A stretch of DNA of 38,372 nt, from positions 1-38,372 of the forward strand of contig DGDY01000330.1 of NCBI GenBank assembly GCA_002385675.1, read 5' to 3'. The position numbers and the translations under genes were made by a program. A model generated the notes under the pieces. It had not been told where the DNA came from. It worked only from the letters and a program-made list of their open reading frames with translations, and ran no database searches. The stretch comes from Anaerolineales bacterium UBA3940. GTDB taxonomy: Bacteria; Chloroflexota; Anaerolineae; Aggregatilineales; UBA3940. Positions 4,319 to 33,219 of this stretch are shown piece by piece (the first letter of the stretch is position 1; each line of letters starts with the position of its first letter).

Positions 4319-5368
4319 GTGACCGTAGACGTGACGCTGTTCACGCGGGAGGACTGCCACCTGTGTGACGAGGCAAAGGCTGAGCTGCAGCGCATCGGCC
4401 AGGCCATCCCGTTGAACGTGATTGAAGTGGACATTGCAAGCGACCCCCGGCTGGAGCGCGAGTATGGGGAGCGCATCCCGGTGATCGGCGTGGACGGGGA
4501 GACCTTCAGCGCGCCGATCAACTGGGAGGACGTGAAGGTGGCGCTCATCACCGCTGCCAGCTTCGAAAGCGCGAGCGAGAAGCAGAAGGCGACGGGCCGC
4601 AAGCGCCGCGTCGTGATCGCGCTTGACAAGGGCATCCTGTGGCTGACCCGCCACTGGCTGGCAGTGCTCAGTACGATTGTCGGGCTGTACGCCGCGATCC
4701 CATTCATGGCGCCGGTCGCCATGGAAGTGGGTGCGACGGGCGTCGCCAATCTCATCTACACCGTATACAGCCCGGTCTGCCACCAGTTCGCCTTCCGCTC
4801 GTGGTTCCTGTTTGGCGACCAGCCCGCCTACCCCAGGGCGCGTGCGGGCGTTGAGCATCTGGAGCCGTTTGAGGTCTACGCGGCGGCAGAACCTGCCTTC
4901 GACGGCATCGACGTGACCGTGCTTGACGATGACCTGATCTTCGCCGCGAAGCGCTTCCGGGGCAGCGAGCGCATGGGCTGGAAGGTGGCGTTCTGCGAGC
5001 GCGACGTGGCGATCTACTCGGCGCTGGCGCTCACCGGCGTGGCGTTTATCTTCCTCAAGCGAGCGGGTGTGAAGGTCCCCAAGCTGCCCTTCTGGGCCTA
5101 CGTGCTGATCGCCATCGTCCCGATAGGGCTGGACGGCTTCAGCCAGCTCTTCGCCAACCCGCCGTTTAACGCCTTCGGGCTGGACGCCTACCCCGTCCGC
5201 GAGAGCACGCCCTTCCTGCGGGTGCTCACCGGGGCGCTGTTCGGGTTTGGCAACGGCTGGCTCGTGTTCCCGTACATCGAGGAGAGCATGCAGGAGACCG
5301 CCGAGATGGTGGAGAACAAGCTCCGCCGGGCGGGTGAGCTGCCTCCGGAGCGTGCGGCGGCGAAGTAG
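4319..5368 (+). CDS. Glutaredoxin-like domain fused to DUF2085 membrane domain
   Basis: 349 residues with two parts. Residues 1-80 form a thioredoxin-fold, glutaredoxin-like (DUF836-type) domain with CHLC at 13-16 and the cis-proline turn RIPVIG (Pro54). From about 110 there is a membrane part matching DUF2085: helices near 110-133, 232-247, 256-278 and 300-320, with the signature VCHQFAFRS (Cys154, His155, Arg160). A soluble insert of about 60 residues (165-228) splits the membrane part. DUF2085 has no established function. The fusion next to ccdA suggests a thiol-redox role at the membrane (inference). GTG start at 4319; no earlier in-frame start fits the glutaredoxin N-terminus. The SD is weak. 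Confidence 0.8.
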   Translation: MTVDVTLFTREDCHLCDEAKAELQRIGQAIPLNVIEVDIASDPRLEREYGERIPVIGVDGETFSAPINWEDVKVALITAASFESASEKQKATGRKRRVVIALDKGILWLTRHWLAVLSTIVGLYAAIPFMAPVAMEVGATGVANLIYTVYSPVCHQFAFRSWFLFGDQPAYPRARAGVEHLEPFEVYAAAEPAFDGIDVTVLDDDLIFAAKRFRGSERMGWKVAFCERDVAIYSALALTGVAFIFLKRAGVKVPKLPFWAYVLIAIVPIGLDGFSQLFANPPFNAFGLDAYPVRESTPFLRVLTGALFGFGNGWLVFPYIEESMQETAEMVENKLRRAGELPPERAAAK

Positions 5369-5590: not shown

Positions 5591-5621
5591 GTGTTTACGT
5601 GTATCCGAATAGGAGGTACAA

Positions 5622-5792
5622 ATGAGCAAAGAAGAATACACTGCCTACTGCGTGAAGTGTAAGACCAAGCGCCCCATGAAGGATGCCGAAGTGGTGACGA
5701 ACGCACAGGGGCGTCGGCAGGCAAAGGGTGAGTGCCCGGTATGCGGCACCAAGATGAACCTGTTCCTTCCGAGTGAGAAGAAGAAGGCCTAA
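5622..5792 (+). CDS. DUF5679 zinc-ribbon small protein
   Basis: A 56-residue soluble protein with two CxxC knuckles, YCVKC (Cys10, Cys13) and ECPVCG (Cys38, Cys41), spaced as in a small zinc ribbon, plus a Lys-rich C-terminus. It resembles the DUF5679 family common in Chloroflexota and some Actinobacteria. No function is established; a nucleic-acid or ribosome-associated role is only a guess from the basic charge. A textbook AGGAGGT lies 4 nt before the ATG at 5622. It is monocistronic, with its own promoter upstream and a strong terminator immediately downstream. Confidence 0.85.
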   Translation: MSKEEYTAYCVKCKTKRPMKDAEVVTNAQGRRQAKGECPVCGTKMNLFLPSEKKKA

Positions 5793-5819
5793 GGCTGAAA
5801 CAGCTATGATCTGACTAGA

Positions 5820-5849
5820 CGCCCCGCCCCGTGCGGGGCGCATTTTTTG
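5820..5849 (+). terminator. Strong intrinsic terminator of the DUF5679 gene
   Basis: An 8-bp GC stem (5820-5827 with 5833-5840), a 5-nt loop, then CATTTTTTG. Confidence 0.92.
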
Positions 5850-5881
5850 CCGGGGCACAACACGGCACGCCGACCTTCTGC

Positions 5882-5915
5882 ACAGATGTGCAATAAAATT
5901 CTGGACAGATGTGCA
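5882..5915. repeat. Direct repeat of acagatgtgca, 23 bp apart
   Basis: The 11-mer acagatgtgca occurs at 5882-5892 and 5905-5915. The first copy is also the core of an inverted repeat (TGCACA-GA-TGTGCA). It lies immediately upstream of the TTAACA-like array and could be a second regulator site. Confidence 0.5.
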
Positions 5916-5919
5916 GTTC

Positions 5920-5972
5920 TTAACCTGTTCTTAACACACTGTTCACAGGGGCTTAATGCACCTGCGGATAAT
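5920..5972 (+). promoter_or_regulatory. PhoP-box-like promoter: four 11-bp-spaced TTAACA hexamers plus -10
   Basis: Hexamers TTAACC (5920), TTAACA (5931), TTCACA (5942) and TTAATG (5953) start exactly 11 bp apart. A GATAAT -10 box follows at 5967-5972. With a start near 5979 the array covers about -59 to -21, the same place as the core site of PhoP-activated promoters in Bacillus, where the consensus is TT(A/C/T)ACA repeats on one helix face. An OmpR/PhoB-family response regulator is therefore the likely activator. No phosphate gene is in the window to support the specific regulator. Confidence 0.55.
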
Positions 5973-5978
5973 GACGGC

Positions 5979-6078
5979 TGTGTGGTGCAGTGTGGTAACC
6001 TACTTTTCTCCCCTTGTAGACCACCTCCTATTCTTCTCACGAGCGAGGCAGCCGTCAGGGCTGCCTCGCTCGTTTATT
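5979..6078 (+). ncRNA. Candidate small RNA with own promoter and terminator
   Basis: About 100 nt between the PhoP-box-like promoter and a strong terminator, with no convincing reading frame. The 5' half can fold into a hairpin (5992-5996 with 6020-6024, and 6000-6003 with 6016-6019, with a 3-nt bulge) whose 12-nt loop is U/C-rich (CUCCCC). A single-stranded C/U-rich linker containing CCUCC follows, then the terminator stem. C-rich loops and anti-Shine-Dalgarno stretches are typical of Gram-positive trans-acting sRNAs. I recognise no known RNA family. The alternative is an attenuator leader for the kinase gene downstream, which however has its own -10 box at 6116. Confidence 0.5.
6041..6078 (+). 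terminator. Strong terminator (13-bp stem)
   Basis: Positions 6041-6053 pair perfectly with 6059-6071 around loop gtcag, followed by GTTTATTAT. No protein gene ends upstream of it, so it must end the small-RNA transcript or attenuate the kinase gene. Confidence 0.85.
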
Positions 6079-6115
6079 ATGCACGGGCCGGGTGGCAGAG
6101 CCGCCCCCGCTCAAC

Positions 6116-6121
6116 TATACT
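6116..6121 (+). promoter_or_regulatory. -10 box of the pseudokinase gene
   Basis: TATACT, with only a poor -35 17 bp upstream. A start near 6128 excludes the upstream in-frame codon at 6092 and supports the GTG at 6167 as the start. Confidence 0.45.
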
Positions 6122-6166
6122 TGGCGCACGTACACCTATGAGCTATCACCATCGACGAGGCGAGCA

Positions 6167-8425
6167 GTGTCAGGAGAGCTGACAGGCCAGCAACTTGGCC
6201 CCTTCACCATCGACGAGCTCATCAGCAGCAACCCGCTCATCGACACCTACAGCGGCTACGACGCCGACCCTGAGCAGCGTGTCGTCGTCAAGATCGTCAA
6301 GCGCGAACCCGCGCCAGAGGATGACCTTCTCCTCGAGTTCCGGCGCGAGGCGCGGGCCATCGCAGGGCTGCGCCACCCGAACATTGCCCGCGTTTTCGAC
6401 TTCGGCGAGACCCGGGCCGGGCGCTACGTCGTCAGCCGCGAAATTGACGGCGTGCCGCTCAGCGAGGCGCTGGCTGAAGCCGCCGCCACCGGGCAGACGT
6501 TCTCCCTGGACGACGTCGCTTTTATCGTACGGCAGGTTGCCGCTGCGCTCCACGAGGCGCACCGGCAGGGCGTCATGCACCGCGCGCTCACGCCCGAGCG
6601 CATCCTGCTCACGCGCAGCGCCCAGGCGATCGTTACCGACTTCGGCCTTGCGCTACTGGCCGGGGACGGGGGCGCAGAAGACCCGCTCGGCGCACGCGAG
6701 TACAGCGCCCCGGAGATGCAAACCGGCGCTCACAGCGCCACACCGGCTGCCGACGTGTACTCGCTGGCCGTGATCGCCTACGAACTGCTCACCGGGCAGC
6801 GCCCGTACAGCCTGGACTCAGACCTTGACCGCGCCCTGCGCGACCTCGCCGATACCGCGCCCGACCCGCGCATATTCCGGCCCAGCCTGCCCCGTGCGGT
6901 GACTCCCGTGCTCCAGAAGGGGCTTGCGACAGCGCCGGGGGAGCGGTTCGAGAGCGCCATGGCGTTCGCCAGTGCGCTGGAGCGCGCGCTCGATGGCGAT
7001 GCGGTCGTCGCGCCGGAGCGCAAGCCCGCGCCGGAGGTCATCCCGCCGCCCACCCGGCCCCCGGCACGCAAGCGCCGCTCGCCCGTTACCCTGGCGCGGG
7101 TTGTGGTGGTTGCCGTCGTGCTGCTGTTGTTTGCGGGCGCGGGCGCAATGCTGCTGCAGGCTATCGGGCTGATCAGCCTGCCGTTTGGGCCGAGGCTCGC
7201 CAGCCGGGAGCCGGAGGCGGAGGTCGCCGCCGAGCCCAGCCCTCCCCCCACATCCGAGCCGACCAACACGCCGCCGCCTTCCCCCACGCCTGAGCCCAGC
7301 CCGACCGACCTGCCCGTCGTCGAGCCAACGGCGACCCTTGCGCCTACCCCGACGCCCCCGCCGCTCGTGGTGGGCAGCAGCGCGTTCCGGCTGGCCGATG
7401 GCGCAGAACTGCGCTTCATCCCCGCTGGCACCTTCCTGATGGGCACAGACGACCCGACCCGGCAGTCGGCGGCTCGCCCGCAGCATGAGGTGCATCTTTC
7501 TGACTACTGGATCGACCTGACGGAGGTCACCAACGCGCAGTATGCGCTGTGTGTCGAAGATGGCGCCTGTACGCCGCCCGTGACGCGCCGCTTCTACGAC
7601 TCGCCGAACTTCGCCAGCCACCCGGTGACGTACGTGCAGCACACGCAGGCGGTCAGCTACTGCCTGTGGCTCGCGCGGGAAACCGGGGAGCCTATCGGGC
7701 TGCCCACTGAGGCCCAGTGGGAGAAGGCTGCCGCCTGGGACCCTGAGGCGGGTGAGGCGCGGTTGTTCCCCTGGGGCAACGAGCAGCCAACCCCCGACCT
7801 GCTGCGCTACGCCGGGAGCGGTGCGAACGCGCCCGCACCGGTCGGGACTTACCCTGAGGGTGCAAGCGCCTACGGCGTGCTCGATATGGCGGGCAACGTG
7901 TGGGAGTGGGTCGCGGACTGGTTCGCCGAGGACACGTACCAGAGCGGCGGCGTCCGCAGCGACCCGACCGGCCCGGCGACCGGGACCCGCCGCGTGACGC
8001 GTGGCGGCGGCTGGCTGGATCAGCAGCCGCTGCTTGTAAGCAACGTGCGCAACTGGGCCAGCCCGACCGCCGCCGGGGACGACCTCGGCTTCCGCTGCGC
8101 GCTCAATACGGACTACCCGTCCACCAACACCGTTGCCCTGACGCCACTGGATCTGGCCTCCGCGCTCGAAGACCTGCTCGCCGACGCCCGGCGCGGGCGT
8201 GACCTCGACCGAGAGATAGCGGACGCGTGGGAGGAGGCGATCGCCAGCCTCACAGAGGCGCTGGGCACGGGCGACGACGAAACCGCCCGCGCCATTGTCG
8301 AGGAGCGGCTGGCCCGGCTGACACGCCAGCGTGCCGATGAGCAGATCGAGCCGGGGCTGGGCTACCGGCTCGACCGCGCGCTGCTCTGGATGCGCAACCA
8401 GCTCGCAGAGGGGACTGCACCGTGA
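6167..8425 (+). CDS. Membrane pseudokinase with C-terminal FGE-sulfatase-like domain
   Basis: 752 residues. Residues 7-275 form a Hanks-type kinase fold: the VAIK-type lysine is present (VVVK, Lys42) and so are DFG (158-160) and APE (181-183). The catalytic loop reads HRALTPER (138-145), so the HRD aspartate is Ala140, the loop lysine is Thr142 and the metal-binding Asn is Arg145. The glycine-rich loop is also missing. This predicts a pseudokinase. A transmembrane helix follows (about 307-336), then a Pro/Thr-rich linker (350-400) and an extracytoplasmic FGE-sulfatase/SUMF1-like domain (404-647, ending GFRCA) without the Cys pair of true formylglycine-generating enzymes. The tail to 752 is charged and probably helical. 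GTG start chosen from the -10 box at 6116 and the GACGAGG SD-like run. Confidence 0.88.
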   Translation: MSGELTGQQLGPFTIDELISSNPLIDTYSGYDADPEQRVVVKIVKREPAPEDDLLLEFRREARAIAGLRHPNIARVFDFGETRAGRYVVSREIDGVPLSEALAEAAATGQTFSLDDVAFIVRQVAAALHEAHRQGVMHRALTPERILLTRSAQAIVTDFGLALLAGDGGAEDPLGAREYSAPEMQTGAHSATPAADVYSLAVIAYELLTGQRPYSLDSDLDRALRDLADTAPDPRIFRPSLPRAVTPVLQKGLATAPGERFESAMAFASALERALDGDAVVAPERKPAPEVIPPPTRPPARKRRSPVTLARVVVVAVVLLLFAGAGAMLLQAIGLISLPFGPRLASREPEAEVAAEPSPPPTSEPTNTPPPSPTPEPSPTDLPVVEPTATLAPTPTPPPLVVGSSAFRLADGAELRFIPAGTFLMGTDDPTRQSAARPQHEVHLSDYWIDLTEVTNAQYALCVEDGACTPPVTRRFYDSPNFASHPVTYVQHTQAVSYCLWLARETGEPIGLPTEAQWEKAAAWDPEAGEARLFPWGNEQPTPDLLRYAGSGANAPAPVGTYPEGASAYGVLDMAGNVWEWVADWFAEDTYQSGGVRSDPTGPATGTRRVTRGGGWLDQQPLLVSNVRNWASPTAAGDDLGFRCALNTDYPSTNTVALTPLDLASALEDLLADARRGRDLDREIADAWEEAIASLTEALGTGDDETARAIVEERLARLTRQRADEQIEPGLGYRLDRALLWMRNQLAEGTAP

Positions 8426-32025: not shown

Positions 32026-33219
32026 ATGTCTGACCGCAACATCGTCGTGTCGGAAGCCCTCGGGCAGTGGATCGAAGACCGGCCTGTTGAGATCGTCGAA
32101 CGCAAGGGAATCGGCCACCCGGACAGCCTGTGCGACGGTATCGCGGAGCGGATCTCCGTTGAGTACACAAAGTGGTGCCTGGAAAACGTCGGCTACGCGC
32201 TGCACCACAACTTTGACAAGGTGCAGCTTGTCGCGGGCGATGTCGATGTGACCTACGGCCAGGCCACGCTGGTCAAGCCCATCCGCATCCAGATCGCCGG
32301 GCGCGGCACGCCCGTCACCCCCGATGGCCGCCGCATCCCGATGGATGCCATCGCCATCAACGCCGCCAAAGCCCACATTCGTGAGACAATGCGGTACCTC
32401 GACCCGGACAAGCACTGCGTGATCGACAGCTACGCGGGCAAGGGCTCCAGCGAGCTGATGCACGCCGTCCACGAGATCACCGCCAACGACACCAGCTTCG
32501 GCGCGTCGCACTGGCCCCGCTCCGTCCTTGAGAACGCTGTCTACGAGACGTGCGAGCACATCACCGGCGTGCTCATCGACCAGTTCCCCATCGGCGAGGA
32601 TGTCAAGGTAATGGGGATGCGCCAGGGGCGCGACATCACCCTGACGTGCGCCATTCCGTTCATCGCAACACGCATCAGCGACGCGGCGGAGTACGTCGAG
32701 GTCAAGGGCGCGGTGCAGGCGGCGATTCAGGCTTTTGCCGAGACGCTCGCGCCTGAGCACAGCGTACGCGTCGAGGTCAACACGGCAGACGATGTGGAGA
32801 ACGGCGCCGTCTACCTCACGCTGACCGGCACGAGCGCCGAGATGGGCGACGACGGCGCCGTCGGGCGCGGCAACCGGGTCAACGGCGTGATCGCGCCGTT
32901 CCGCGCCGCCTCGCTGGAGGCTGCGCCGGGCAAGAACCCGATCAGCCACGTCGGCAAGCTCTACAACGTGCTGGCGCTGCTCGCCGCCCAGGACATCGTC
33001 GAGAGCGTTGACGAGGTGGGCGAGGCGCAGGTCTACATCCTCAGCCAGATCGGCAAGCCGCTCGACCGCCCGCTCGTTGCAACGGCCACTGTGCGCTCGA
33101 AGAACGGCGCCCTCAGCGAGGCCGCGAAGCAGGCCGTCATCGATGTGATCGACCGCCGCCTGGCCGACATCGAGGGCGTCCGCAGGAAGCTGGCCAACAT
33201 GGAGGTCCGGCTCTACTAG
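32026..33219 (+). CDS. S-adenosylmethionine synthetase, archaeal type
   Basis: Makes SAM from methionine and ATP. 397 residues of the archaeal-type AdoMet synthetase family, not the usual bacterial MetK: KGIGHPDSLCDGIAE (27-41) and the later GRGNRVNGVI and GKNPISHVGKLYN blocks are the archaeal-family hallmarks, while the GHPDK and GDQG-type motifs of MetK are absent. AGGAGG lies 14 nt before the ATG at 32026, and a stop codon precedes it in frame. Controlled by the SAM-I riboswitch directly upstream (feedback by its own product). A strong terminator (33297) ends the transcript. Confidence 0.93.
   Translation: MSDRNIVVSEALGQWIEDRPVEIVERKGIGHPDSLCDGIAERISVEYTKWCLENVGYALHHNFDKVQLVAGDVDVTYGQATLVKPIRIQIAGRGTPVTPDGRRIPMDAIAINAAKAHIRETMRYLDPDKHCVIDSYAGKGSSELMHAVHEITANDTSFGASHWPRSVLENAVYETCEHITGVLIDQFPIGEDVKVMGMRQGRDITLTCAIPFIATRISDAAEYVEVKGAVQAAIQAFAETLAPEHSVRVEVNTADDVENGAVYLTLTGTSAEMGDDGAVGRGNRVNGVIAPFRAASLEAAPGKNPISHVGKLYNVLALLAAQDIVESVDEVGEAQVYILSQIGKPLDRPLVATATVRSKNGALSEAAKQAVIDVIDRRLADIEGVRRKLANMEVRLY

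Follow-up and report, generated by a model that had tools for sequence, protein, structure and literature searches.

A candidate small RNA unit behind a Pho-box-like array in a Chloroflexota genome

OmpR-family regulators in general use tandem direct repeats with a spacing of about 11 bp, and SphR of cyanobacteria is a PHO box regulator. The PHO box has been described as two 11-nt direct repeats, with CTGTCAT in E. coli and GTTCACC in S. coelicolor (PMC4415409), and the PhoB box as replacing the -35 element in E. coli (PMC3616915). In Proteobacteria, several small RNAs have been reported to be responsive to phosphate limitation: a PhoB-induced one that acts on rpoS in E. coli, and others in Sinorhizobium meliloti. 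PhoB sites are listed for some of the S. meliloti candidates (PMC2573895, PMC8829014); PMC2573895 reports none as evident before the four that are induced by starvation. These RNAs are likened to the candidate described below by regulation, not by sequence. RsaE and IsrR of staphylococci and FsrA of Bacillus are C-rich sRNAs that target Shine-Dalgarno sequences; like the candidate, they have unpaired CU-rich stretches complementary to GGAGG, a resemblance of motif only. Searches of the open-licence literature found little on sRNAs or the phosphate response in Chloroflexota; among the papers listed, none had a title on Chloroflexota sRNAs or on a Chloroflexota Pho box.

The window analyzed here is a stretch of 38,372 nucleotides from Anaerolineales bacterium UBA3940 (contig DGDY01000330.1), in which a Pho-box-like array stands before a short stretch that ends in a hairpin. 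Our preferred reading, to which we assign a probability of about 0.6 with the mode of action excluded from that figure, is a free-standing small RNA unit driven by a Pho-type regulator. A response regulator of the PhoB/PhoP type would bind the four-unit array and activate the promoter, and on phosphate limitation an RNA of approximately 95–100 nt (about 5979–6075) would be made and ended by its own intrinsic terminator.

The array in the window and its counterparts in the phylum

The sequence-only reading had described four hexamers in exact 11-bp register and a GATAAT box 8 bp past the last of them. All of these were present: TTAACC, TTAACA, TTCACA and TTAATG start at 5920, 5931, 5942 and 5953 of the forward strand and form a putative Pho-box-like operator (5920–5958), which resembles arrays preceding pst genes, and GATAAT at 5967–5972 is the candidate -10 element, with a predicted start at about 5979. 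A search of the window for TTNAC-N6-TTNAC-N6-TTNAC with up to one mismatch found this array alone, in two overlapping registers, and none of 100 shuffles gave a match. The four-unit score in the intergenic region was likewise matched by none of 1000 dinucleotide-model resamples; the array exceeds chance. Directly 5' of it lie two 17-nt repeats that the earlier reading had missed, TTCTGCACAGATGTGCA (5876–5892) and TTCTGGACAGATGTGCA (5899–5915). They contain two tandem dyads, TGCACAGATGTGCA and TGGACAGATGTGCA, 23 bp apart (5876–5915, no strand assigned), with exact pattern matches at 5879–5892 and 5902–5915. The dyads are probably a second operator and suggest a second regulator. No dyads of that kind were found before the array of the related locus L007 (L007 7401–7700).

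We scanned 400 Chloroflexota genomes for CTTAAC(N5)CTTAAC(N5)CTTAAC with up to one mismatch. The scan gave 26 matches in 21 genomes, compared with 6 for the reversed pattern; the 26 matches represented 22 distinct sites (L196–L217), 21 of which lay outside called ORFs of at least 80 aa. Nine of the 22 sites preceded phosphate-acquisition genes (mgsA-pstS, pstS, pstB, phoX or a Na/Pi cotransporter gene). The next co-directional gene, found by rule for 18 sites, was pstS at two of them, a Na/Pi cotransporter gene with a PhoU domain at one, and a methylglyoxal synthase gene followed by pstS at four. By eye, two sites that this rule left without a gene lead into phoX, which has a Pfam but no NCBIfam match, and pstB, which exceeds the NCBIfam cut-off. 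Among the six PstS proteins, four scored above that cut-off; the one from L207, truncated where the locus stops, and the one from L209 were slightly under it. The control was the reversed pattern with up to two mismatches in 121 genomes, and so differed from the phylum scan in genome set and mismatch limit. A locus was at hand for 30 of the 42 control matches, 15 of the 30 lay within ORFs, and a test of 19 immediately following called genes found no phosphate-acquisition gene among them.

Two marks of a PHO box were found in the window, namely tandem direct repeats at 11-bp spacing and a unit of the kind that precedes phosphate genes in the same phylum (9/22 sites versus 0/19 in the control). 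The array promoters are like those of PhoB in E. coli and PhoP in Bacillus and Streptomyces in having tandem 11-bp repeats shortly before the -10 element, at pst-type genes in this phylum; the candidate differs in its unit, CTTAAC[AC], and in that its array would drive no protein gene. The regulator is taken to be the phosphate one because such arrays precede phosphate genes in the phylum. The Pho-box interpretation offered earlier gained support from like arrays upstream of pst, phoX and Na/Pi genes and from the similar -10 spacing in several of them. Given the unit, Pho control is highly probable, and the promoter is very likely of the Pho type.

The remaining 13 of the 22 phylum sites were not classed as phosphate acquisition; examples are glutamine synthetase, a reductive dehalogenase, ArsJ-associated GAPDH (two sites) and a Ser/Thr kinase. 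Such sites, together with the generality of tandem repeats of about 11 bp in the OmpR family, would suit a real site of a different OmpR-family regulator, the small RNA downstream being unchanged. The nine phosphate-acquisition sites and the nearness of the window geometry to that of five of them speak against this account, which we regard as distinctly unlikely. The geometry was compared as the distance from the last unit to the best -10-like hexamer in 18 array promoters, the window and 17 others. In the window, four units are followed at 8 bp by GATAAT. The best hexamer lay at 9 bp in 6 of the 17 others: L204, L205 and L209 (four units each), L208 (five), L211 (three) and L012 (four, tied with 20 bp). 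The first five of these, L204, L205, L209, L208 and L211, are the five phosphate-acquisition sites in question, all of them pst promoters. Another distance was found in 11 of the 17 (L206, L207, L215, L201, L087, L088, L089, L018, L104, L214 and L007); 9 bp was the second choice in L018, and the best hexamer in L007 was TATGTT, 12 bp away. The window is thus near one common arrangement of array promoters, not all.

With up to two mismatches, 121 near genomes gave 32 matches compared with 42 for the reversed pattern, and the array was not enriched; since these matches were fewer than those of the reversal, most at that level may be noise. Loci were available for 30 of the 32 and were read. Arrays stood before PHO4 transporter genes, including those in G095 and G114 (L087 and L088 by Pfam, L089 by eye), at phoU (beside it in G055, divergent in L101), at a CHAD protein gene (L090) and before the pstS of G004 (L018), whose partial protein scored under the NCBIfam cut-off. 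Among the pst operons read in the nearest genomes, an array was found solely at the pstS of G004:C136. Four operons in which a substrate-binding gene was visible (G007:C51, G007:C66, G004:C332 and G004:C226) had no array above shuffles, and the stretches examined in G007:C80, G002:C297 and G001:C82 stop short of a pstS.

Other arrays raised side observations. In four Chloroflexota genomes (L204, L205, L206 and L207), mgsA, encoding methylglyoxal synthase, and then pstS lie under CTTAAC arrays, and methylglyoxal synthesis is possibly under Pho control. Three genomes (L012, L104 and L214) have a CTTAAC array a short way upstream of a Ser/Thr kinase gene, and a Pho-controlled kinase link is possible; the control locus L169 likewise had a kinase. 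Arrays at L197, L198, L203 and L210 precede genes for ArsJ-associated GAPDH (by NCBIfam in L197; by Pfam GAPDH domains and a near-identical start in L198), a reductive dehalogenase and a glutamine synthetase, so that arsenate, dehalogenation and nitrogen may possibly be linked to the same regulator. Five genomes (L095–L099) have one and the same array (CTTCACATGGGATTAACATGAYCTTAAC), flanked by a membrane protein gene and by a divergent gene that by eye is glycosyltransferase 9-like. Proteins of 90–96 aa are encoded behind arrays at L018:1143–1430 (G004, just before pstS) and L015:1082–1351 (G003, 3 mismatches); they are alike by eye and have no Pfam match.

Layout of the unit between its neighboring genes

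The gene order around the candidate unit is a CcdA-like gene, a glutaredoxin-DUF2085 gene (4319–5368), a DUF5679 zinc ribbon gene (5622–5792, PF18930 domain match), the unit itself and a kinase gene. A search with the DUF2085 protein yielded 11 loci, of which the best 8 were from Anaerolineae, Anaerolineales or Chloroflexi MAGs, so that its neighbors place the window in Chloroflexota; in L001, L003, L004, L007 and L072 the DUF2085 gene is followed by the kinase gene, with differing small genes in between. Positions 5600–6200 had no match in a plasmid collection. Across the whole window, no Rfam family scored above its gathering threshold except the SAM riboswitch (RF00162, 31799–31928, 88.4 bits), which precedes an ORF at 32026 that by eye is metK-like.

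On the 5' side, a predicted intrinsic terminator at 5820–5846 (forward strand; an 8-bp GC stem with a T run) would end the preceding transcription unit, that of the DUF5679 gene. On the 3' side lies the Ser/Thr kinase gene with an FGE-sulfatase domain (6167–8425, forward strand; PF00069 and PF03781), whose GTG start at 6167 was placed by comparison with relatives. It is outside the candidate unit and has a putative promoter of its own, GTGGCA-N18-TATACT, at 6092–6121 of the forward strand. The element GTGGC-N18-19-TATACT recurs in L007, L001, L004 and L072, and thus in 5 of the 6 syntenic loci with the window included, and L003 has TATACT only. GTGGC and TATACT with a gap of 17–19 bp had 19 occurrences on the two strands of 1.63 Mb of fetched sequence, overlapping loci being counted repeatedly. 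Because L004 and L072 carry the kinase promoter with neither an above-chance array nor a match to the RNA model described below, the promoter and the RNA unit are separable.

The putative RNA body (5979–6038, forward strand) is predicted to be weakly structured. It contains the C/U-rich stretches that had been pointed out before, CTCCCC at 6008–6013 and ACCTCC within 6023–6033 (ACCTCCTATTC). It is followed by a hairpin with a T-rich tail (6039–6078, forward strand), identified by folding, terminator scan and repeat search as the candidate's intrinsic terminator. The hairpin had been proposed with a 13-bp stem; the structure stood, and the stem proved to be 15 bp long (6039–6053 with 6059–6073, 100% complementary). 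Its T tail is weak (TTTATTATG) yet passes the terminator scan. Folding of 5977–6078 gave a z score of -6.9, owed almost wholly to the terminator stem; for 5977–6041 alone the z score was -1.0, with 31 of 200 shuffles folding as well, which is chance level.

The absence of an ORF that the earlier reading had reported holds in part, as two of the three frames are open over 5973–6085, and a short protein under Pho control could in principle be encoded there. By eye, the predicted transcript has no start codon with a ribosome-binding site and the ATG at 5971 overlaps the -10 element, and substitutions and indels between the L007 RNA and its G001 copies ignore codons (also by eye). We therefore consider a short protein highly improbable.

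The transcribed stretch might instead be the 5' leader of the kinase gene, driven by the array and carrying an attenuator hairpin. Arrays do stand close before the Ser/Thr kinase genes in G004 (L012), G010 (L104) and L214, the weakness of the T tail in the window and its absence in L007 make read-through possible, and a 9-nt stretch at 5972–5980, complementary to 6049–6057 within the hairpin, could compete with it. However, that stretch lies almost entirely 5' of the predicted start at 5979, the array-driven kinase of G004 has WD40 repeats and differs from the syntenic gene at L004, and a separate kinase promoter follows the hairpin position in 5 of the 6 syntenic loci, L004 and L072 among them, where no array rises above chance. 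We judge the leader unlikely. The free-standing small RNA unit is favored by a terminator of its own before it, a kinase promoter of its own after it and an equal layout in L007, as had been claimed for it. That a terminator stands where both flanking units are already complete speaks for a short transcript there, and a promoter and terminator of its own between independent genes, a mark of sRNA units, were found by sequence features. The predicted promoter and terminator are a real, non-random pair, the stretch is probably a transcription unit of its own, and the promoter most likely serves a free-standing small RNA. No terminator was found behind two other arrays (L213 and L201).

The unit in related genomes

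At the orthologous place in L007, TTAAAA, TTAACG, ATAATG and TTAACC stand in 11-bp register; the four-unit score was reached in 0 and the three-unit score in 3 of 1000 resamples, values that are not a blind test because L007 was already known when the weights were chosen. This array is followed by approximately 60–65 nt closed by a 13-bp hairpin that lacks a T run. L001 has a weaker four-unit array (12/1000 resamples) with a three-unit score at chance level (152/1000), and its RNA is homologous to that of L007. In G001, the source genome of L001, contig C226 opens with a second copy of the RNA (L111), which has a good T run and whose upstream sequence is lost. The L007, L001 and L111 RNAs have in common GGNCATNCA, GTTGTRTTGT, ACCYCGTGT and GACAGGGCAGC, and for the 5' part all three pairwise scores exceeded those of 1000 of 1000 mononucleotide shuffles. 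In these relatives the product would therefore be conserved as a short, hairpin-ended stretch. The arrays of L003, L004 and L072 were at chance level only, and these loci gave no above-chance match to the L007/G001 RNA model. Conservation of register and terminator, put forward earlier as a check in close relatives, was accordingly mixed: L007 had the array and a hairpin without a T run, L001 had both weakly, and L003, L004 and L072 had neither above chance.

The body of the window RNA is a different matter. In local alignment its score was reached in 448 (L007), 204 (L111) and 13 (L001) of 1000 mononucleotide shuffles, so that the likeness to L001 is marginal and that to L007 and L111 is chance. 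A covariance model of the L007/G001 RNA scored on the window by the hairpin alone (13.7 bits). BLAST with the window RNA in 151 genomes (E≤0.02) gave 3 matches, all within ORFs without an array; two were in the hairpin and one spanned 6007–6055 at 76% identity. The window RNA body has no detectable homologue, and sequence conservation, another mark of sRNAs, is lacking for it. The L007/G001 RNA is like the window in syntenic place (L007 and L001), array (L007) and a hairpin with a GGCAGC core, but its body differs, and its ACCTC motif is shorter (L007 and L111) or reads ACCCC (L001). The window and L007 share position, array and layout, yet not the RNA body. The ACAGGGCAGC hairpin by itself was not taken as homology because a terminator of this shape also follows a gene of G011. 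A search for further copies of the L007/G001 RNA gave matches at E≤0.1 in 31 of 151 genomes. Apart from the three training sequences, none of them exceeded 26.4 bits, and nine such places inspected by eye were ordinary terminators or chance.

Candidate targets and significance

The CU-rich single strand (CACCUCCU and CUCCCC) would pair with Shine-Dalgarno regions and lower translation. CACCUCCU, in the weakly structured part, extends to ACCTCCTATTC (6023–6033), the exact complement of GAATAGGAGGT in the Shine-Dalgarno region of the DUF5679 gene (5607–5617, forward strand), an 11-nt candidate pairing site. We compared 36 gene starts, drawn up by us from the ORF table. Complementarity of at least 11 nt to any of them arose in 8 of 500 randomized RNAs; the figure was 12 of 500 when CACCTCCT was left intact. 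Ranked by duplex energy, DUF5679 came 12th of the 36. DUF5679 as a conserved target found no support across genomes: in G007 and G001 its matches lie solely inside longer frames, and the six small DUF5679 genes read elsewhere (L151–L154, L160 and L161) have no array behind them. In view of the randomization rates, the energy rank and the position of the DUF5679 matches in G007 and G001, Shine-Dalgarno pairing is a tentative proposal for the action of the RNA and DUF5679 a rather improbable target, its mRNA being the best lead among local candidates by pairing length.

More speculatively, one lineage of Chloroflexota may have a Pho-controlled small RNA locus anchored before the kinase gene. The body of its RNA would change fast, one relative would have a duplicated copy, and the RNA would repress translation by anti-Shine-Dalgarno pairing once phosphate is exhausted; we hold this fuller picture to be doubtful. 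Chloroflexota are common in soils and wastewater. If the Pho-controlled small RNA is real, no response-regulator-driven sRNA would have been described in the phylum before it. The arrays offer a testable Pho box for Chloroflexota, with CTTAAC units every 11 bp and often a -10 element about 9 bp on, that would cover mgsA-pstS operons. With this phylum Pho box and a concrete small RNA candidate, phosphate-dependent RNA control becomes testable in cultured members.
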